NCBI GenBank assembly: GCA_902786285.1
Contig: CADABX010000023.1
Location: 1-32,276 of the forward strand
Length of the DNA stretch: 32,276 nucleotides
From: Oscillospiraceae bacterium
GTDB lineage: Bacteria; Bacillota; Clostridia; Oscillospirales; Acutalibacteraceae
Direction: 5' to 3'
The notes below the pieces were generated by a model. That model searched no databases and was not told the origin of the DNA. It saw only the letters and a program-made list of their open reading frames with translations. This document shows, piece after piece, positions 3,981-14,806 of this stretch. The position numbers and the translations under genes were made by a program. Numbering within the stretch: the first letter of the stretch is position 1; every line of letters begins with the position of its first letter.

Positions 3981-5420
3981 TCAGAAAAACGATGAAGCAC
4001 ATTCATCTTCCCTTTGCAGTCGTTGCTCAAAGCGGTTTTTGACATTGGCGGCGGAAACGTCCGTCGGGTAACGACCGGAAAAGCACGCGCTGCAATACCC
4101 TTCGCCCGGCACCAGCGCTTTCAGAGCCGTCAGCGGCAAAAAGCCGAGCGAATCCGCGCCGATCTGCCGGGCGATCTCGTCAACAGAACAGCGGCAGGCG
4201 ATCAGATTTTCTGTGGAGTCGATGTCCGTGCCGTAATAGCACGGATGCAAAAACGGCGGCGCACTGATGCGCACATGCACCTCGGTTGCACCGGCGTCGC
4301 GCAAAAGCGACACAACCCTGCGCATCGTGTTGCCGCGCACGATGGAATCGTCGACCAGTACCACGCGCTTGCCGCGCAAACTTTCTTCCACGGCAGACAG
4401 TTTGATCCGCACGCTGTCGGTACGCATACTTTGTCCGGGCGCGATAAAGGTGCGCCCGATATATTTGTTTTTGATGAGGCCGATGCCGTAGGGGATGCCG
4501 GACGCCCGCGCAAAGCCGAGCGCCGCGTCCAGCCCCGAATCCGGCGCACCGATTACCAGATCGGCCATGACCGGGTGCTGCTTTGCCAATGCTTTGCCGG
4601 CGCGAATCCGAAACGCATGCACCGACAACCCGTCGACGACAGAATCGGGCCGGGCAAAATAGATGTATTCGAATACACACAGACGCCGGGGCTGCGTCTG
4701 ACAGTGCTCTTTGCGCGACACCACACCTTCTTTGCTGAAAACAAGGATCTCGCCGGGTTCCACATCACGGACCGGCACAGCGCCGACGGCGCGCAGCGCG
4801 CAGCTTTCCGACGCGACGACATAGGCTCCGTCCGGCATCTGACCGAAACACAGCGGCCGAAACCCGAACGGGTCGCGGGCACACAGCAGCTTTTGCGCCG
4901 ACATCAAAACGAGAGAATAGGCGCCCTCCAGCAGATCCATCGCCGCCGACACCGCGTCTTCGATCGACGCGGTGCGCAGCCGCTGCTGGGTAACAACATA
5001 GGCGATGATCTCGGTGTCGCTTGTGGAATGAAAGATCGCGCCGCTTTTTTCCAATTTGTCGCGCAGCGCAGCGGCGTTGCTCAAATTGCCGTTGTGTGCC
5101 AGCGCGAGTCTGCCCTTCTGGTGGTTGACCTCCATCGGCTGGCAGTTGCTGCGGCTGTTGCCGCCTGTGGTGCCGTAGCGCACGTGACCGACCGCTATGG
5201 TGCCGGGCGGCAAAGCGGCGAGCTCCCGCGCAGAAAACACATCGCCGACAAGGCCGAGGTCTTTGTGAGAATAAAACAGACCGTCTTCATTGACCACAAT
5301 CCCGCAGCTTTCCTGCCCGCGGTGCTGCAGGGCGTACAGCCCGTAATACGTATCGGCGGCAACGTCGGTTTTGCGGTTTGCAAACACGCCGAACACGCCG
5401 CATGCTTCCTGAATTGCCAT
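3981..5420 (-). CDS. purF: Amidophosphoribosyltransferase
   Basis: Catalyses the first committed step of purine synthesis, transferring glutamine amide nitrogen to PRPP to give phosphoribosylamine. 479 residues, normal full length. The N-terminal Ntn glutaminase begins MAIQEACGVF, so Cys7 would become the nucleophile after removal of a short propeptide. The phosphoribosyltransferase PRPP loop is VVLVDDSIVRGNT (353-365). Cys248, Cys394, Cys443 and Cys446 fit the four ligands of the structural [4Fe-4S] cluster of the Bacillus-type enzyme. The start follows GGAGGAG. It stands last in the leftward glnN, amt-PII, purF unit, away from any other pur gene, so its transcription may follow nitrogen status. 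A weak hairpin at 5431-5460 separates it from amt. Confidence 0.97.
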   Translation of the reverse strand: MAIQEACGVFGVFANRKTDVAADTYYGLYALQHRGQESCGIVVNEDGLFYSHKDLGLVGDVFSARELAALPPGTIAVGHVRYGTTGGNSRSNCQPMEVNHQKGRLALAHNGNLSNAAALRDKLEKSGAIFHSTSDTEIIAYVVTQQRLRTASIEDAVSAAMDLLEGAYSLVLMSAQKLLCARDPFGFRPLCFGQMPDGAYVVASESCALRAVGAVPVRDVEPGEILVFSKEGVVSRKEHCQTQPRRLCVFEYIYFARPDSVVDGLSVHAFRIRAGKALAKQHPVMADLVIGAPDSGLDAALGFARASGIPYGIGLIKNKYIGRTFIAPGQSMRTDSVRIKLSAVEESLRGKRVVLVDDSIVRGNTMRRVVSLLRDAGATEVHVRISAPPFLHPCYYGTDIDSTENLIACRCSVDEIARQIGADSLGFLPLTALKALVPGEGYCSACFSGRYPTDVSAANVKNRFEQRLQREDECASSFF

Positions 5421-5467: not shown

Positions 5468-7228
5468 TTATTCCACGTCCTGCAAAGCGTCAAAGCCCTC
5501 TTCGCCGGTACGCACCTTAATCACGTTTTCCACGTCATAGACAAAGATCTTGCCGTCGCCGATGTGACCGGTATACAAAACCCGTTTCGCTGTTTCGATC
5601 ACCGCGCGGACAGGCACTTTGCTGACCACGATGTCTACCTGCACCTTCGGCAACAGCGTCGCCTCCACCTGCACACCGCGGTAGTATTCCGGTTTGCCCT
5701 TCTGCACGCCGCAGCCGAGCACATGGGATACCGTCATGCCGGTGATGCCGATGCGCAGCATGGCGTCCTTGAGCGCTTCGAGCTTTGCTTCTTTGCAGAC
5801 GATCTCGATCTTGGTAAACTTCGGCGCACCTTCGTCAAACGCCGGCACTTTTTTGACCGGCACGGCTTCGGCAACCGGCACGTCGCCGGTAACAACCACA
5901 GGCACAAGCTCCTCATCAATGGATTCCGGCAGCATGGAAAAGCCGGCATAGGCCGACGGCAGACCGTGTTCGGTCTGATCGAGCCCGAGCAGTTCCTCTT
6001 CTCTGGAGACGCGCAGACCCACAACCTTTTTGATGGTCAAAAACGTCACGGTGATCGTGACCGCCGTCCAGGCGGCGACCGACGCAAAACCGAGCAACTG
6101 CAGGGAAAGCAGTTTGACGCCGCCGCCGTAGAACAGACCGGTTAGCGTGCTGCCGGCAGCGTCCGCAATGGAATAGCCGGGCGCTTTGTCTGTGGCAAAC
6201 AGCCCAACGGCAACGGTGCCCCAGATGCCGTTAAGACAGTGCACGGCGACCGCGCCGACCGGGTCGTCGATATGCAGCTTGTGATCGAGCATCCACACAC
6301 CGAACACCACAAGCAGCCCTGCTACGGCGCCGATGCAGATGGCGCCGAACGCATCAGTCACATCACACGGCGCGGTGATTGCCACCAGACCGGCGAGCGA
6401 GGCATTGAGGCACATCGACACGTCAGGTTTGCCGTATTTCAGCCACGTAAAGATCATGCAGACCACGGTTGCCACGGCGGGCGCTATGGTGGTGGTCAAA
6501 AAGATGGAGCCGAGCTGCTGCACGCTCGTTGCCGCCGCACCGTTGAAGCCGTACCAGCCGAGCCACAGGATGAACACACCCAGCGCGCCGAGCGCGATGC
6601 TGTGGCCGGGAAAGGCGTTGACTTTAACAACTTTGCCGCGCTCGTCGTGTTTGAATTTGCCGATACGCGGACCAAGGATTTTTGCGCCGATCAGCGCTGA
6701 AATGCCGCCGACCATGTGGATGGCACAGGAGCCGGCAAAATCGTGGAAGCCGAGCCCGCTCAGCCAGCCGCCGCCCCAGATCCAGTGCGCTTCGATGGGA
6801 TAGATCAGCGCCGAGATCACGCCGGAATAGATGCAGTAGGACAAAAACTTCGTTCGCTCCGCCATCGCGCCGGACACGATGGTCGCCGTTGTGGCGCAGA
6901 AGACGAGATTGAACACAAACGAGGAAAAGTCAAAGCTTTCATACGCTGTAAACAGGTCGAACCCCGGTTTGCCGATGAAGCCGACCAAATCTTCGCCCAT
7001 CAGCAGACTGAAACCAATCACAATAAAAACAACGGTACCGATGCAGAAATCCATCAGATTCTTCATAATGATGTTGCCTGTGTTTTTGGCGCGGGTAAAC
7101 CCGGCCTCCACCATGGCAAATCCGGCCTGCATCCAGAATACAAGCGCTGCACCGATCAGAAACCAGACGGCAAACACTTGAGAGCCGACCGCTTCCTGCA
7201 CCGTTTGTAAGAGACTATCTGAAATCAT
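5468..7228 (-). CDS. amt: Ammonium transporter with fused C-terminal PII domain
   Basis: Membrane ammonium channel/transporter of the Amt/Rh family. 586 residues from the ATG at 7226-7228, chosen because GAGAGGAAGG precedes it at good spacing; a longer frame adds 14 unlikely residues. Residues 1 to about 420 form about eleven membrane segments with typical Amt stretches (MQAGFAMVEAGFTRAKN, GAMAERTKF, HMVGGISALIGA). After a linker, about the last 115 residues are a complete PII (GlnB/GlnK) domain beginning FTKIEIVCKEAKLEAL. It has a T-loop containing EYYRG and the C-terminal signature TGHIGDGKIFV. In most bacteria GlnK is a separate protein that plugs the Amt pore; here the regulator is tethered. 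Cotranscription with glnN is likely through the attenuator-like hairpin at 7245-7328. Confidence 0.96.
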   Translation of the reverse strand: MISDSLLQTVQEAVGSQVFAVWFLIGAALVFWMQAGFAMVEAGFTRAKNTGNIIMKNLMDFCIGTVVFIVIGFSLLMGEDLVGFIGKPGFDLFTAYESFDFSSFVFNLVFCATTATIVSGAMAERTKFLSYCIYSGVISALIYPIEAHWIWGGGWLSGLGFHDFAGSCAIHMVGGISALIGAKILGPRIGKFKHDERGKVVKVNAFPGHSIALGALGVFILWLGWYGFNGAAATSVQQLGSIFLTTTIAPAVATVVCMIFTWLKYGKPDVSMCLNASLAGLVAITAPCDVTDAFGAICIGAVAGLLVVFGVWMLDHKLHIDDPVGAVAVHCLNGIWGTVAVGLFATDKAPGYSIADAAGSTLTGLFYGGGVKLLSLQLLGFASVAAWTAVTITVTFLTIKKVVGLRVSREEELLGLDQTEHGLPSAYAGFSMLPESIDEELVPVVVTGDVPVAEAVPVKKVPAFDEGAPKFTKIEIVCKEAKLEALKDAMLRIGITGMTVSHVLGCGVQKGKPEYYRGVQVEATLLPKVQVDIVVSKVPVRAVIETAKRVLYTGHIGDGKIFVYDVENVIKVRTGEEGFDALQDVE

Positions 7229-7244
7229 AACAATCCTTCCTCTC

Positions 7245-7328
7245 AAAAAACAAAGAATAACCGCCGACAAGGGGTGTCATACGTCGGGGAAGTCAGACCC
7301 GGTCCTTTTCCGCAAGCCGACGGTTATT
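7245..7328 (-). terminator. Long-stem terminator/attenuator between glnN and amt
   Basis: A 13-pair stem (7316-7328 with 7256-7268, two G-U pairs) encloses a 47-base loop and is followed leftward by CTTTGTTTTTT. No promoter is visible between this hairpin and the amt start. Transcription of amt would therefore depend on read-through, or on a promoter inside glnN. Confidence 0.65.
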
Positions 7329-7336
7329 GTCGAAGA

Positions 7337-9430
<2,094 letters not shown>

Positions 9431-9448: not shown

Positions 9449-9599
9449 AAAAAAATGAGAAACGGCGTCTTCGCACAGAATGCAAAAGACGCCGTTGCCT
9501 TAAAATGAGAGAGGTCTTTGGTACACGCCCAAAGACCCCATTGCCTGTCTGATTGGAAGCGAGGTCTTTGAGCGTTTTGCCCAAAGACCCCGTTGCCTT
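9449..9599 (-). promoter_or_regulatory. glnN leader: three tandem ANTAR-type hexaloop / terminator units
   Basis: Reading leftward, three small stems of the form (A)AGGC-loop-GUCU(U) occur at 9584-9599 (loop AACGGG), 9533-9546 (AATGGG) and 9486-9501 (AACGGC). Each loop has six bases with A at position 1 and G at position 4, the known recognition pattern of ANTAR proteins. In every unit the GUCUU arm is reused as part of the 5' arm of a longer hairpin (9561-9591, 9511-9539, 9461-9496), so the two folds exclude each other. Only the third long hairpin is followed by a T-run (9449-9455), making it the terminator before glnN. The ANTAR assignment is inference; no ANTAR gene is in the window. Confidence 0.72.
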
Positions 9600-9606
9600 T
9601 TTGTGC

Positions 9607-9635
9607 ATTATATCGCTTTAGAGCGCGAAAGTCAA
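9607..9635 (-). promoter_or_regulatory. Sigma-A promoter of glnN
   Basis: TTGACT (9630-9635), 17 bases, TATAAT (9607-9612) on the minus strand. The transcript would begin within a few bases of the first hexaloop stem (9599), so almost nothing precedes the regulatory RNA. Confidence 0.85.
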
Positions 9636-9673
9636 CCCCTTTTGCAAAGTTTTTCAAAAAATTTTTTTCGCGC

Positions 9674-9702
9674 TTGACAACGGGAAACCAACGCGCTATA
9701 AT
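9674..9702 (+). promoter_or_regulatory. Sigma-A promoter of the glutamate synthase operon
   Basis: TTGACA (9674-9679), 17 bases, TATAAT (9697-9702) on the plus strand, divergent from the glnN promoter with the two -35 boxes 38 bases apart. Confidence 0.87.
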
Positions 9703-9711
9703 GCAGAAAAA

Positions 9712-9767
9712 GAGCAATGGCGTTCATCTGACGCGGCCCCGCCGCAAAGATGAGCGCTTTTCTTTTT
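9712..9767 (+). terminator. Hexaloop plus terminator in the glutamate synthase leader
   Basis: GAGC-AATGGC-GTTC (9712-9725) is a four-pair stem with a six-base loop having A1 and G4, as in the glnN leader. Its loop end and 3' arm overlap the 5' arm of a ten-pair hairpin (9720-9729 with 9748-9757), which has an inner GCGGC/GCCGC stem and is followed by TTTTCTTTTT (9758-9767). The terminator lies upstream of the chosen gltB start, so it would abort transcription unless the hexaloop form is stabilised. Confidence 0.7.
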
Positions 9768-9785: not shown

Positions 9786-10883
9786 TTGAAAAAAGAGGGC
9801 GAAATCCGCATCCCCTCCGGCTGCGCCATTGCGGCTGTGATCTCCAAAGACGGCAAGCGCATGAACGGCGACGGCATCGTGCGGTCGATGGTGCCGATGC
9901 ATGAACGCTCCAACGGGCTCGGCGGCGGCTTTGCGGCCTACGGCATCTATCCGCAGTACCGGGACTTTTATGCGTTTCATCTGTTTTTTGATTCGCGCGA
10001 CGTGCGCAAAGACTGCGAGGCGTTTTTGAGAGAACGGTTTGAAATCGTCCATGCCGAACGCATTCCCACACGGAAGATTCCGCAGATTACAGACGAGCCG
10101 ATGATCTGGCGCTATTTTCTTGCGCCGCTGTCTTCGGCGGTCGCCGCCATGCAGGTGGACGAAAAGGAATATGTCATGCGCGCCGTGATGCAGATTAACA
10201 GCGAAAAGAACGGCTGCTATGTGTTTTCCAGCGGCAAAAACATGGGCTGCTTCAAGGCGGTCGGCTATCCTGAAGACGTCGGCGAGTTCTACCGGCTGGA
10301 CGAATACGAGGGCTACTGCTGGACGGCACATGGCCGCTATCCGACCAACACACCCGGCTGGTGGGGCGGCGCACATCCGTTTTCGCTTTTGGACGCTTCC
10401 GTGGTCCACAACGGAGAGATCTCCTCCTATGACGCGAATCGCCGGTTTATTGAAATGTTCGGCTACCACTGCACGCTGCAGACCGACACCGAGGTCATCA
10501 CCTATATCATGGACTATCTGCTGCGCCGCAAAGGACTGACGCTGCAGGAGGCCGCCGCCGTGATTGCAGCGCCGTTCTGGAGCACGATTGAAGCAAAGAC
10601 GGACGCCCGGGAGCGCGAGCAGTACGCGTTTTTGCGCATGGTTTTTCCGAGCCTTTTGGTCACAGGGCCGTTTTCCATCGTGTTTGCGTTTGACGGCGGG
10701 CTAATGGCGCTCAATGACCGGTTGAAGCTGCGGTCAATGGTGGTTGGCGAAAAGGACGACAAGGTCTTCATCGCCAGCGAGGAGTCCGCCATCCGCGTGA
10801 TGGCGCCGGACGCCGAAAACATCTGGTCGCCCGCCGGCGGCGAGCCGGTGATCGTGCGTGTGAAAGAAGGTGCCAAACTTTGA
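9786..10883 (+). CDS. Glutamate synthase glutaminase (class II amidotransferase) subunit
   Basis: Releases ammonia from glutamine for the neighbouring synthase subunit. About 365 residues from a TTG at 9786. The frame also has an ATG at 9750, but that codon lies inside the terminator hairpin, and AAAGGCGG at 9770-9777 fits the TTG. The domain begins EIRIPSGCAIAAV; this cysteine, about residue 13 of the chosen frame, is the probable nucleophile after propeptide removal. Other family segments are GDGIVRSMVPM, GLGGGFAAYGIYP, GRYPTNTPGWWGGAHPF and VVHNGEISSYD. In ordinary bacterial GOGAT this domain is fused to the large subunit; here it is separate, as in archaeal-type split enzymes. It overlaps the next gene by 4 bases. 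Confidence 0.9.
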   Translation: MKKEGEIRIPSGCAIAAVISKDGKRMNGDGIVRSMVPMHERSNGLGGGFAAYGIYPQYRDFYAFHLFFDSRDVRKDCEAFLRERFEIVHAERIPTRKIPQITDEPMIWRYFLAPLSSAVAAMQVDEKEYVMRAVMQINSEKNGCYVFSSGKNMGCFKAVGYPEDVGEFYRLDEYEGYCWTAHGRYPTNTPGWWGGAHPFSLLDASVVHNGEISSYDANRRFIEMFGYHCTLQTDTEVITYIMDYLLRRKGLTLQEAAAVIAAPFWSTIEAKTDAREREQYAFLRMVFPSLLVTGPFSIVFAFDGGLMALNDRLKLRSMVVGEKDDKVFIASEESAIRVMAPDAENIWSPAGGEPVIVRVKEGAKL

Positions 10884-12385
10884 ATGAACTGTACATCACG
10901 CCCGAATTCGAGGTTGTGCGCAATGAAAACCGCTGCATTGCCTGCCGCGTCTGTGAACGCCAGTGTGCGAACGAGGTACATAGTTTTGACGAAACACGCG
11001 GGGTGCTGCGCAGCGACGAGATCAGGTGTGTCAACTGCCAGCGGTGCGTGTCCCTTTGCCCGACCCACGCGCTTAAAATTGTGAAAAACAACTGCACGCT
11101 GCGCGAAAACGCCAACTGGCAGAACGCCACAATCAAAGAAATCTATAAGCAGGCGAACACCGGCGGTGTGCTGCTGTCCTCGATGGGCAACCCCAAACCG
11201 ATGCCGGTGTATTGGGACAAGATCCTGATCAACGCTTCGCAGGTGACCAATCCGCCCATCGACCCGCTGCGCGAGCCGATGGAAACGCGCGTCTTTCTCG
11301 GCAAAAAGCCGGACGTGCTGCGGCGCGGCGCAGACGGAAAGCTGCTGACGGATCTGGAGCCGCAGCTCTCGCTTTCCATGCCGGTGATGTTTTCCGCCAT
11401 GAGCTACGGCTCCATCAGCTATAACGCCCATGCGTCGCTTGCCGCGGCGGCCGAAGCACTCGGAATCTTGTATAACACGGGCGAAGGCGGACTGCATGAG
11501 GACTTTTACCGCTACGGCGCGAACACCATTGTGCAGGTGGCGTCCGGACGGTTCGGCGTGTATGAAGACTATCTGAACGCCGGCGCCGCCATTGAGATCA
11601 AAATGGGCCAGGGCGCAAAGCCCGGGATCGGCGGCCATCTGCCCGGCGCAAAGATCGTTGGTGACGTCTCGCGCACGCGGATGATTCCGGAAGGAACGGA
11701 CGCCATCTCTCCGGCGCCGCACCACGACATCTATTCGATTGAAGACCTGCGGCAGTTGGTCTATTCGCTCAAGGAAGCGACCAACTGCCAAAAGCCCGTC
11801 ATTGTGAAGGTGGCGGCGGTCCATAATATTGCAGCCATCGCCAGCGGCGTGGCGCGCTCCGGCGCGGATATCATTGCCATCGACGGCTTTCGCGGCGGCA
11901 CCGGTGCGGCGCCGACCCGCATCCGCGATCATGTGGGCATCCCGATTGAGCTGGCTTTGGCGGCGGTGGACCAGCGGCTGCGGGACGAGGGCATCCGCAA
12001 CAACGTGTCTTTGGTCGTCGGCGGCTCCATCCGTTCGGCGGCGGACGTTGTAAAGGCGGTAGCGCTCGGCGCGGACGCGTGCTATATCGCAACAGCGGCG
12101 CTGCTCGCGCTCGGCTGCCATCTGTGCCGTACCTGCCAGAGCGGCAAATGCAACTGGGGCATCGCCACCCAGCGCGCAGACCTTGTCAAGCGGCTGAACC
12201 CTGAAATCGGCAAAGAGCGCCTTTGCAATCTGATGACTGCGTGGCGCCACGAAATCATGGAGATCATGGGCGGCATGGGCATCAACTCCATTGAAACCTT
12301 GCGCGGCAACCGTCTGATGCTGCGCGGAATCGGTTTGAGCGAAAAAGAACTGTCGATTCTCGGCATCATGCATGCCGGCGAATAA
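10880..12385 (+). CDS. Glutamate synthase, ferredoxin-like plus FMN-binding synthase subunit
   Basis: Central catalytic subunit that uses ammonia, 2-oxoglutarate and reducing power to form glutamate. 501 residues from a TTG overlapping the previous stop codon, after AGAAGG. Residues about 13-65 hold two four-cysteine motifs (CIACRVCERQC and CVNCQRCVSLC) for two [4Fe-4S] clusters. The rest is the FMN/TIM-barrel Glu_synthase domain, with SYGSISYNAH, NTGEGGLHEDFYRYG, MGQGAKPGIGGHLPG, IDGFRGGTGAAPTR and VVGGSIRSAADVVKA. Cysteines in CHLCRTCQSGKC fit the enzyme's own iron-sulphur site. Order in the operon is glutaminase, this subunit, ferredoxin, FAD protein, GXGXG subunit. Confidence 0.95.
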   Translation: MNELYITPEFEVVRNENRCIACRVCERQCANEVHSFDETRGVLRSDEIRCVNCQRCVSLCPTHALKIVKNNCTLRENANWQNATIKEIYKQANTGGVLLSSMGNPKPMPVYWDKILINASQVTNPPIDPLREPMETRVFLGKKPDVLRRGADGKLLTDLEPQLSLSMPVMFSAMSYGSISYNAHASLAAAAEALGILYNTGEGGLHEDFYRYGANTIVQVASGRFGVYEDYLNAGAAIEIKMGQGAKPGIGGHLPGAKIVGDVSRTRMIPEGTDAISPAPHHDIYSIEDLRQLVYSLKEATNCQKPVIVKVAAVHNIAAIASGVARSGADIIAIDGFRGGTGAAPTRIRDHVGIPIELALAAVDQRLRDEGIRNNVSLVVGGSIRSAADVVKAVALGADACYIATAALLALGCHLCRTCQSGKCNWGIATQRADLVKRLNPEIGKERLCNLMTAWRHEIMEIMGGMGINSIETLRGNRLMLRGIGLSEKELSILGIMHAGE

Positions 12386-12399
12386 GAAGGAGGTGCGCC

Positions 12400-12840
12400 A
12401 TGAAACGGATTTATGTCAACGAGGACTGGTGCCTCGGCTGTCACTTGTGTGAATACAACTGCGCGTTTGCAAATTCCGGCGAAGCGGATATGGCCGCCGC
12501 ACTGAAGGGCAAGCCGCTGTTTCCGCGTATTCATATTGAAGAAGGCGACAAAATCTGCTATGCGGTGTCCTGCCGCCACTGCGAAGACCCTCTGTGCGTC
12601 AAAAGCTGCATCGCGGGCGCGCTGCAGGTGAAAGACGGCGTGATCACCGTTGACCAAAGCCGCTGTGTCGGGTGTCTGACCTGTGTGCTGGTCTGCCCCT
12701 ACGGGGCGCTGGCGCCGAACGAAAACGGCGTCATGCAAAAATGTGAGCTTTGTCTGCAGAACAGTTGCGGGGAACCGGCGTGTGTCAAAGGCTGCCCGAA
12801 CCGCGCGATCGTCTTTGAAGAAAGGAGCGCGGTCTTATGA
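12400..12840 (+). CDS. Multi-cluster ferredoxin subunit (HycB/DmsB-like) of the glutamate synthase
   Basis: 146 residues with four cysteine groups: CLGCHLCEYNC, the CRHCEDPLCVKSC region, CVGCLTCVLVC and CELCLQNSCGEPACVKGC. This is the pattern of electron-transfer subunits holding up to four [4Fe-4S] clusters. It probably passes electrons between the FAD protein encoded next and the FMN synthase subunit. The ATG follows a perfect AAGGAGG, 14 bases after the synthase subunit, and the gene overlaps the FAD gene by four bases. Similar proteins serve hydrogenases and molybdoenzymes, so the glutamate synthase role rests on operon position. Confidence 0.92.
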   Translation: MKRIYVNEDWCLGCHLCEYNCAFANSGEADMAAALKGKPLFPRIHIEEGDKICYAVSCRHCEDPLCVKSCIAGALQVKDGVITVDQSRCVGCLTCVLVCPYGALAPNENGVMQKCELCLQNSCGEPACVKGCPNRAIVFEERSAVL

Positions 12841-14084
12841 AGCAGTATGTCATTATCGGCAACGGTACGGCGGCAGTCAGCTGTGTGGAAGGGATTCGCA
12901 GCATAGACGAAAAAACGCCGATCACCATTGTTTCCGAAGAAATATACCCGGCCTACTGCCGTCCGCTGATTTCCTATTATTTGGAGGGCAAAACCGATCG
13001 CAACCGGATGCAGTACCGCCCGGACGATTTCTATGAAACGAATGGCTGCACTGTGCTGTATGGAAAAACAGCCGTCCATCTTTCGGTACGGCAAAAGACC
13101 GTGACACTCAGCGACGGACAGACCCTGTCTTATGACGCGCTGTGCGTTGCAACAGGGTCAACGCCGTTTGTGCCGCCGATCCCCGGGCTGGAAACGGTTG
13201 CAAAAAAATACACATTTTTAAAGCTGGACGATGCACTTGCTTTGGAGCAGGCTGTCACACCGGACAGCCGCGTACTGATCGTAGGTGCCGGTCTGATCGG
13301 TCTGAAATGCGCCCAAGGACTGTCTGCACGCGCAAAAAGTATCACGGTCTGCGATCTGGCGGATCGGGTGCTTTCGAGTATTTTGGACAACGCCTGCGCC
13401 GCACGGATGCAAACGGTGTTGGAACAACACGGCATCCGGTTTCTGTTGTCCGACACGGCGGCGCGGTTTGACGGCAACACGGCCATCATGCAAAGCGGCG
13501 AACAAATACCGTTTGACGTTCTGGTACTTGCAATCGGTGTGCGACCGAACACTGCGCTTGTGCGCGAAAGCGGCGGCAAAATAAATCGCGGCATTTTGGT
13601 CGATGCGCAGATGTGCACATCTCTGCCCGGCGTCTATGCCGCCGGAGACTGCGCCGAAGGGATGGATATTTCCTGCGGAAGTTCCCGTGTGCTTGCCGTT
13701 TTACCGAACGCGAACCTGCAGGGCTTTTGCGCCGGTGTGAATATGGCGGGCGGCACGAAGGTATTTGACAATGCGATTCCGATGAATGCCATCGGCTTTT
13801 TCGGTCTGCATGCACTGAGCGCCGGCAGCGACCGGTCGGACGAACCCGGCGGTGCAGTTTATGAGGAAAGTGACGAATGGCATCTCAAGCGCCTGTTTCT
13901 CAAAGACGACAACCTGACCGGCTTTATGTTGATCGGCGACACTGCGCGCGCCGGGATTTATACGTCGCTGATTCGCAGGCAGACACCGCTGCACACGCTG
14001 GATTTTGACCGGTTAAAACAAACGCCCACCACGGCGGCGTTTTCAAAAGAGACACGAAAGAAAACATTTGGAGGCGCAGTCTGA
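12837..14084 (+). CDS. FAD/NAD(P)-dependent pyridine nucleotide-disulphide oxidoreductase
   Basis: 415 residues. The N-terminus YVIIGNGTAAVSCVEGIRS is an FAD-binding Rossmann motif, and a second dinucleotide fold is RVLIVGAGLIGLKCAQGLS. The segment GVYAAGDCAEG near residue 270 is the conserved FAD contact close to the C-terminus of the cofactor domains. It resembles NirB/rubredoxin-reductase type enzymes and probably feeds NAD(P)H electrons to the ferredoxin of the same operon, replacing the usual GltD beta subunit. It has no redox-active CxxC. It overlaps both neighbours by a few bases (tight coupling). Confidence 0.9.
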   Translation: MKQYVIIGNGTAAVSCVEGIRSIDEKTPITIVSEEIYPAYCRPLISYYLEGKTDRNRMQYRPDDFYETNGCTVLYGKTAVHLSVRQKTVTLSDGQTLSYDALCVATGSTPFVPPIPGLETVAKKYTFLKLDDALALEQAVTPDSRVLIVGAGLIGLKCAQGLSARAKSITVCDLADRVLSSILDNACAARMQTVLEQHGIRFLLSDTAARFDGNTAIMQSGEQIPFDVLVLAIGVRPNTALVRESGGKINRGILVDAQMCTSLPGVYAAGDCAEGMDISCGSSRVLAVLPNANLQGFCAGVNMAGGTKVFDNAIPMNAIGFFGLHALSAGSDRSDEPGGAVYEESDEWHLKRLFLKDDNLTGFMLIGDTARAGIYTSLIRRQTPLHTLDFDRLKQTPTTAAFSKETRKKTFGGAV

Positions 14085-14806
14085 TGAAATATCTCAATGC
14101 GGCAAATCAGGATTTCCAAGCGCTGAACCGTTCTTTGCGCGTGCAAAAACAGCCCTGCACGCTGCAGAACTGCTGCGGTCAGCGTTTCCTTGCGGCAGGC
14201 ATGTCGCAGATCGAACTGACAATTGAAGGTGTGCCGGGCAACGCGCTCGGCGCCTATCTCAACGGCGGCAGTATCACCGTTTGCGGCAATGCGCAGGACG
14301 CGGTGGGTGACACGATGAACGAAGGAGAAATCACGGTGCACGGGAATATCGGCGACGCGGCGGGCTATGCCATGCGCGGCGGTGCAATCTTTGTGAAAGG
14401 TAACGCGGGATACCGTGCCGGCATCCACATGAAAGCGTACCGCGACAAGGTGCCGGTGATGGTGATCGGCGGTCGGGCAGGCAGCTTTTTAGGCGAATAC
14501 CAGGCCGGCGGCGTGATCGTTGTTCTGGGATTGCATGATGACAGCAAACCGATCGTCGGGAACTTTCCCTGTACCGGCATGCACGGAGGCAAAGTCTTTT
14601 TGCGTGGCGAGATGGATGGTGTCCGCTTTCCGAAGGGTGTCCATGTGGATGCAGCGAGTGAAGCGGAGCTGGCCGGAATTCGTCCGCTGCTGCAAAGATA
14701 CTGCGCAAAGTTCGGCGTATCGCAAGAAGCATTGACGGGTGTTCCGTTCTTTGTTGTAACCCCGGACAGCGCCAACCCGTTCCGGCAACTGTATGCGGCC
14801 AACTGA
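14084..14806 (+). CDS. Glutamate synthase GXGXG-domain subunit
   Basis: 240 residues forming a right-handed beta-helix. The repeats run GGSITVCGNAQDAVGD, GEITVHGNIGDAAGYAMRGG, IFVKGNAGYRAGIHM and VIGGRAGSFLGEYQAGG. In single-chain GOGAT this is the C-terminal domain of the large subunit, which helps shape the ammonia tunnel; here it is a separate polypeptide ending the operon. The ATG overlaps the previous stop codon (TGATG) after GGAGG. No good terminator in the plus direction follows directly; the hairpin at 14926-14965 may serve. Confidence 0.9.
   Translation: MKYLNAANQDFQALNRSLRVQKQPCTLQNCCGQRFLAAGMSQIELTIEGVPGNALGAYLNGGSITVCGNAQDAVGDTMNEGEITVHGNIGDAAGYAMRGGAIFVKGNAGYRAGIHMKAYRDKVPVMVIGGRAGSFLGEYQAGGVIVVLGLHDDSKPIVGNFPCTGMHGGKVFLRGEMDGVRFPKGVHVDAASEAELAGIRPLLQRYCAKFGVSQEALTGVPFFVVTPDSANPFRQLYAAN

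Follow-up and report, generated by a model that had tools for sequence, protein, structure and literature searches.

The RNA target of ANTAR proteins was defined by Ramesh et al. in 2012 as a two-hairpin element with the hexaloops P1 and P2 (PMC3369931). The hits reported in the accessible text of that paper precede genes for P-II, ammonium transporters and the synthases of glutamate and glutamine; in Desulfotomaculum acetoxidans, at least 13 sites are spread over six transcription units (PMC3369931). That ANTAR proteins control these synthase genes has thus been proposed before. The 2022 structure of EutV led to a new definition of the minimal binding site, which became a single hexaloop; P1 was found to be necessary for antitermination by EutV, and the available part of that paper states that bioinformatic and experimental work on the role of the single hexaloop is still needed (PMC8934654). 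NasR binds one hairpin approximately ten-fold more weakly than two, with a value of about 12 uM for P2 alone (PMC7496416), and a survey of actinobacterial ANTAR targets demanded two stem-loops (PMC8164766). AmiR carries a pseudo-receiver and is controlled by its partner AmiC (PMC8934654). NitR of Clostridium acetobutylicum has been mentioned as an antiterminator, and both this protein and the ANTAR gene of the GS-GOGAT cluster of C. thermocellum occur in the same setting as the gene described here, with a proposed role in antitermination for ammonium assimilation (PMC4676874). In the accessible part of that report, regulation in C. acetobutylicum is described with an antisense RNA, and no RNA target is given for NitR (PMC4676874).

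In this study, we analyzed a stretch of 32,276 nt from an Oscillospiraceae bacterium (contig CADABX010000023.1), referred to as the window. As listed in Table 1, glnN and the glt operon are divergent, and the approximately 355 bp between them hold all four hexaloop stems. The ammonium transporter-P-II gene is probably co-transcribed with glnN. Behind it lies a purF-like gene with glutamine amidotransferase and phosphoribosyltransferase domains (window 3981-5420, minus strand). The longest glt reading frame begins at ATG 9750 on the plus strand, with its start inside the 3' arm of the terminator. Since many glt homologs align from residue 13 of this frame, TTG 9786, which is preceded by GGAAAGG, is the likelier start. 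Rfam at gathering thresholds returned a tRNA as the sole match in the whole window.

Table 1. Genes, promoters and leader structures of the switch (window positions unless a locus is given).
Feature	Position	Strand	Details
Ammonium transporter fused to P-II, 67 nt behind glnN	5468..7270	-	Pfam Ammonium_transp, P-II
glnN, type III glutamine synthetase, regulated gene	7337..9430	-	Pfam GSIII_N 3e-78 and two more domains
glnN unit 3 terminator hairpin 9496-9461 and seven-T run 9455-9449	9449..9496	-	fold -21.7 kcal/mol
glnN unit 3 hexaloop hairpin AAGGC[AACGGC]GTCTT, loop 9496-9491	9486..9501	-	5 bp, -2.6 kcal/mol
glnN unit 2 competing hairpin, then weak T stretch	9511..9539	-	fold -18.5 kcal/mol
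glnN unit 2 hexaloop hairpin AGGC[AATGGG]GTCT, loop 9542-9537	9533..9546	-	4 bp, -1.6 kcal/mol
glnN unit 1 competing hairpin, without T run	9560..9592	-	fold -23.8 kcal/mol
glnN unit 1 hexaloop hairpin AAAGGC[AACGGG]GTCTTT, loop 9594-9589	9583..9600	-	6 bp, -3.4 kcal/mol
glnN promoter TTGACT-17-TATAAT	9607..9635	-	read from sequence, positions checked
glt promoter TTGACA-17-TATAAT	9674..9702	+	read from sequence, positions checked
glt unit hexaloop hairpin GAGC[AATGGC]GTTC, loop 9716-9721	9712..9725	+	4 bp, -1.6 kcal/mol
glt unit terminator hairpin 9719-9758 and T-rich tail	9719..9767	+	fold -26.0 kcal/mol
glt operon: glutamine amidotransferase, synthase, Fe-S, reductase, GXGXG genes	9786..14806	+	Pfam
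gdhA	L002:3886-5220	-	two units in leader 5240-5400

The four A1/G4 stems described in the initial annotation (loops AACGGG, AATGGG, AACGGC and AATGGC) are all present where it had placed them. Folding also bears out its view that the 3' arm of each stem is shared with a terminator-like hairpin: in all four units, the loop and 3' arm double as part of the 5' arm of the stronger hairpin. The hexaloop stems fold with -1.6 to -3.4 kcal/mol and the competing hairpins with -18.5 to -26.0 kcal/mol. Given this gap in stability, the small stem is expected to be outcompeted if nothing holds it. The glnN leader carries three tandem units, and its long T run is indeed confined to the last, with seven T after unit 3 and a weak stretch after unit 2, whose hairpin has CTCTCATTTT directly 3'. 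The lack of a T run rules out unit 1 as an ordinary terminator; its hexaloop hairpin is predicted to begin within a few nucleotides of +1. The glt terminator hairpin has TTTTCTTTTT directly 3'. These units resemble the targets of EutV in eut and of NasR in nasF in the A1/G4 hexaloop hairpin, the C-G closing pair, mutual exclusion with a terminator, the nitrogen genes served (glutamate synthase included) and the occurrence of several sites per genome (PMC3369931, as far as its accessible text goes). They differ in that each terminator goes with a single hexaloop rather than with P1 and P2, in the location of that hexaloop at the predicted 5' end of the RNA, in a strict AANGR loop, and in a strong TTGACA-17-TATAAT promoter directly before the hairpin.

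The conservation of the loop was investigated with a loop-blind scan, in which any six-nucleotide loop closed by a stem of 4 bp or more was accepted if its 3' part overlapped a hairpin, and the loop bases were free. In the glnN and glt leaders, the scan returned exactly the four A1/G4 stems. Across four leaders of the source genome (glnN, glt, glnA-nitR and a second GSIII gene) it returned seven structures, 7/7 of them A1/G4. The background, taken from both strands of 20 eut loci, was 108/1431, or roughly 1 in 16. The 78 related glnN leaders gave 54/145 A1/G4 structures, and the next loop combination reached 12; these were 78 of 80 loci, as L106 and L124 came without upstream DNA and were left out. 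In 30 glt leaders, the source genome included, the count was 26/67, and 24 of the 30 leaders had a unit. An antisense control at the other end of the glt match gave 4/44. These results indicate that the A1/G4 loop named in the initial annotation is kept in related glnN and glt leaders at a frequency well above that of the background. The bare motif RGCANNGGNGTY was uninformative genome-wide (141 matches vs 115 for the reversed control). A -10 box plus a loose loop pattern was also set aside, giving 27 matches in the source genome, many resembling ribosome-binding sites; among these 27, read on both strands, units occurred only at the glnA-nitR, glnN and glt leaders.

We then examined covariation of the stem. 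Ninety distinct units were gathered on three features: a -10 box, a loop matching CAANGRNG, and a hairpin that overlaps it and is followed by a T-rich tail; a stem rule was omitted to avoid circularity, and most of the glt units came from loci scanned on both strands. At stem pairs 2-5, 334 of 360 cells were paired. When the partner was slid by 1-3 positions, 103-183 of 360 cells paired, and shuffling gave 232.5 cells (sd 6.5), with 0/2000 shuffles reaching 334. Pair 4 was A-T in 32 units, G-C in 27 and C-G in 25. An alignment (A2) was built from 72 of the 77 units that had a -35 match of five or six bases and a locus coordinate; L088, with a broken stem, was left out, as were a later tandem unit of L280 and one spurious-looking unit each of L294, L298 and L311, and the count of 90 keeps all five. 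In this alignment, three of five pairs vary on both sides and one varies on one side (G-U, G-C, A-U); the closing C-G is invariant since it is part of the collecting motif. Pairing was found in 95.5% of the cells, and the covariation score was 0.730, compared with at most 0.180 for slid and 0.291 for shuffled alignments. These results demonstrate strong covariation in homologous leaders, by which the initial annotation had proposed to judge the stems.

The position of the promoter was examined in the same 90 units. An exact TTGACA was found in 68, though the -35 box had not been used in the collection, and a 17-bp spacer in 59 of the 82 units with at least four matching -35 bases; in shuffled sequence, an exact -35 match was found in 0.1%. 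Among 55 leaders unselected for a promoter, an exact TATAAT ended 10-19 nt before the loop in 26 and lay elsewhere within 100 nt in 2, a count whose glt portion read the wrong end for minus-strand matches and whose glnN portion is unaffected. With +1 set at the seventh base past the -10 box, the predicted loop start had a median of +10 and fell between +7 and +12 in 74/90 units. Thus, the transcript start almost at the stem, pointed out as unusual in the initial annotation, holds true across relatives on predicted +1 positions. As the hexaloop begins at about the expected start of the transcript, the stem and little else would fit, with no room for a P1.

Of the hexaloops upstream of the unit, 3/57 were A1/G4 (stem of at least 3 bp, 45 nt; the glt portion of this count again read the wrong end for minus-strand matches, with the glnN portion unaffected) in one search and 1/58 (stem of at least 4 bp, 60 nt) in another. 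In the eut control (20 loci, 40 nt, both strands), 11/38 upstream hexaloops were A1/G4, and clear A1/G4 pairs appeared in four leaders of three loci, so that a comparable search does detect P1. Of the A1/G4 units with a T-rich tail in eut loci, 8/32 have some A1/G4 hexaloop upstream. In the eut dual hexaloops at L260, L277 and L278, P1 is AATGGN with C-G closure and resembles the single hexaloops, and P2 is AANGNA. Downstream of the 90 units, 27/232 structures were A1/G4, tandem units included. The single hexaloop in place of the usual pair, which had been remarked on for the glt side, therefore holds across relatives. It is improbable that the leaders are ordinary dual-hexaloop elements whose P1 was missed, either through a start further upstream or because tandem units act as P1 and P2. 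The three tandem glnN units would fit such an arrangement, with unit 1 lacking a T run as a recruitment hairpin might, and a second unit does lie within 230 nt in 11/90 promoter-proximal units. However, these 11 are spaced 57-104 nt apart with a full hairpin between, and 79/90 have no further unit, whereas published eut linkers measure 5-12 nt (PMC3369931, accessible text) and lengthening of the linker by 20 nt abolished antitermination (PMC8934654, available part). The low upstream counts, the near-perfect promoters, which leave no room, and the detection of P1 in eut loci also argue against it. Judging from these sequences, messages in this group as a rule carry one hexaloop at their 5' end, which departs from the two-hairpin definition. 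Because P1 was searched for and not found in these leaders, we do not file them as dual-hexaloop ANTAR RNA, though they would work like one.

The extent of the regulon was examined in the source genome, which is approximately 90% complete. Nine units were found in five leaders (glnN, glt, glnA-nitR, the second GSIII gene and gdhA), and by folding, nine of nine overlap a stronger hairpin. All five leaders precede ammonium-assimilation genes, and one belongs to the operon of the ANTAR gene itself. The initial annotation had made its proposal depend on an ANTAR gene in the genome; one was found, inside the same nitrogen system, directly behind glnA and before the second GSIII gene. Before glnA-nitR, a single unit, ATGAGC[AAAGGC]GTTCAT, is found together with a terminator, and the leader of the second GSIII gene has two. 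Two units also stand in the leader of gdhA (glutamate dehydrogenase, Pfam ELFV), which is divergent from glnA. A switch that opens only under nitrogen shortage would not be expected to serve GDH along with GS and GOGAT. At L002:5500-9727, glnA-nitR lies apart from the glt operon with the second GSIII gene next to it; many relatives keep a glt-glnA-nitR row. With a model of promoter plus hexaloop (R1), the four best hits in the source genome were glt, gdhA, glnA-nitR and glnN, of which the first two were in the training set and the last two were not. The fifth hit, C38:24002 at 33.1 bits, was rejected as no A1/G4 unit is there; the second GSIII leader, with its poor -10 box, is absent from the R1 hits listed above it. 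A candidate at L002:12585 near an asparagine synthase gene, from a 14-kb scan around glnA-nitR, has no promoter and was taken as chance.

The association of units with ANTAR genes was determined in two data sets. An ANTAR gene was present in 61 of the 77 genomes behind the glnN loci (L104 is not in this set). An A1/G4 unit before glnN occurred in 45/61 ANTAR-positive vs 0/16 negative genomes (p 4e-8), and other hexaloops were unlinked to ANTAR (41/61 vs 11/16). Among 120 genomes of the family, R1 hits at E of at most 1e-3 were found in 62/77 ANTAR-positive vs 3/43 negative genomes, and in 35/50 vs 3/43 when the 27 training genomes were removed (p 2e-10); as the genomes are related, the p values overstate independence. 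Relaxed criteria gave weaker results in the same direction (36/61 vs 0/16; 38 vs 2; 40 vs 3; 48 vs 7), in an analysis whose glt portion also read the wrong end for minus-strand matches. In 16/61 ANTAR-positive genomes, the main scan found no A1/G4 unit within 450 nt of glnN; in some of these, the unit was missed by the scan or lies further upstream. In the ANTAR-negative genome of L088, the -10 box and loop are intact and the stem is broken. In both data sets the units go with ANTAR genes, a co-occurrence that the initial annotation had proposed to look for.

These counts bear on whether the hexaloop is read by a factor other than the ANTAR protein, or the leader is a plain constitutive attenuator. 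That would suit genome G004, which is 97% complete and in which no ANTAR gene was found, yet where both promoter and unit are perfect, at the end of a contig (L361, G004:C60:6212-6271). We regard it as very unlikely, in view of the co-occurrence in both data sets, the agreement of A1/G4 and the C-G closing pair with the selection made by EutV and NasR (PMC3369931 and PMC7496416, in their accessible parts), and the location of nitR behind glnA in an operon that is itself leader-controlled.

Gene order was compared in two groups of 20 relatives, L279-L298 picked for nitR and glt on the same contig, and L299-L318 picked for nitR alone (no gene was recognised in L299). In 17/20 of the first group, glnN is encoded on the other strand past the glt promoter, in some cases separated from it by a further gene such as gdhA; 17/20 have a unit before glt, and the R1 search added one more, in L296. 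In both groups together, glnA is directly upstream of nitR in 33/40 loci, and 7/40 have no recognised glnA beside nitR. Among 54 unit rows, in which some sites occur twice, the nameable gene behind the unit was glnN, glt, gdhA, glnA or an ammonium transporter in 47, and 7 had none. Since the reference genes were all nitrogen-related, this shows which genes were recognised, not the absence of other controlled genes. Units precede glnN in Ruminococcus sp. YE71, Sellimonas caecigallum, Claveliimonas monacensis, Neglectibacter sp. X58 and Sphaerochaeta halotolerans, and are thus not restricted to metagenome assemblies. Records named as spirochaetes (Treponema, Sphaerochaeta and others; L084, L089, L092, L094, L107, L127) have a GSIII gene with a similar leader unit, which suggests that gene and switch were transferred together.

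Of the 29 loci fetched with R1, 13 have divergent units on both strands, which is what would be seen if one NitR dimer held the hexaloops of two nascent RNAs, for example those of glnN and glt, and so coupled the operons. In the EutV crystal, two ANTAR domains do hold hexaloops of different RNA molecules, but the authors deem binding in trans too slow during transcription (PMC8934654, accessible text). The other 16/29 loci have a unit on one strand only, and we give pairing in trans very little credence.

The name NitR is used here for the ANTAR protein of the source genome. ANTAR (8.4e-19) was the only Pfam domain recognised in this protein at E 0.001, and no receiver match was obtained at that threshold. 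Its nearest solved ANTAR proteins are Rv1626 (1e-13), AmiR (5.9e-7) and NasR. At the position presumed to hold the phospho-acceptor Asp, which is our own assignment, NitR has Asn59; among 54 homologs, this position is Asn in 40 and Asp in 4. Compared with a REC-ANTAR response regulator of the EutV type, NitR thus has the ANTAR domain without the phospho-acceptor Asp. A receiver-like domain of this kind makes a partner protein likelier than a kinase, and a partner would be expected, from the protein sequence, to carry the signal to NitR. By gene order, with glnA just upstream of nitR, GlnA would be the first candidate. AmiR/AmiC, NasS-NasT and NasR are likewise ANTAR antiterminators without a kinase; they differ in their substrates and partners and have two-hairpin targets (PMC7496416, in its accessible part).

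We consider it very likely that these leaders are single-hexaloop, promoter-proximal attenuators that are read by NitR and lack a separate P1. The support comes from sequence, namely the two alternative folds, stem covariation, the location of the promoter, the lack of a detectable P1, the genes served and co-occurrence with ANTAR genes. Transcription would start from a strong sigma-A-type promoter, and the weak hexaloop hairpin could fold within the initial 20-30 nt of the RNA; the 3' arm of this hairpin doubles as the 5' arm of the stronger terminator. When NitR is inactive, the terminator would win; active NitR would grip the hexaloop and block the terminator, and the downstream genes would be transcribed. 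In this way glnN with the ammonium transporter, glt, gdhA, the second glnN and glnA-nitR would be switched on together, and some leaders carry the whole unit two or three times. We infer that NitR would bind the hexaloop, act as the antiterminator and be activated under nitrogen shortage. The suggestion that one ANTAR protein could switch GSIII and GOGAT together is supported by the covariation, the A1/G4 conservation and the co-occurrence with ANTAR genes.

In the literature searched, which had most subscription journals outside it, no description of promoter-proximal single-hexaloop attenuators was found. In the current model, an ANTAR protein needs two hexaloops, of which the first recruits and the second antiterminates, and the single-hexaloop form could test this. 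Dozens of genomes offer such attenuators as a natural set, for which a candidate protein is available and whose short leaders are fit for in vitro transcription. We lean toward the broader view that a single hexaloop at the 5' end suffices for ANTAR antitermination and that P1 is not general. A widespread, kinase-independent class in Clostridia and some spirochaetes would then control ammonium assimilation, with the ANTAR gene in its own regulon. With the hairpin forming while RNA polymerase is leaving the promoter, its capture may fall in very early elongation. The leaders also give a testable account in which GS, GOGAT, GDH and ammonium transport may be switched as one in many Clostridia of the gut and rumen.
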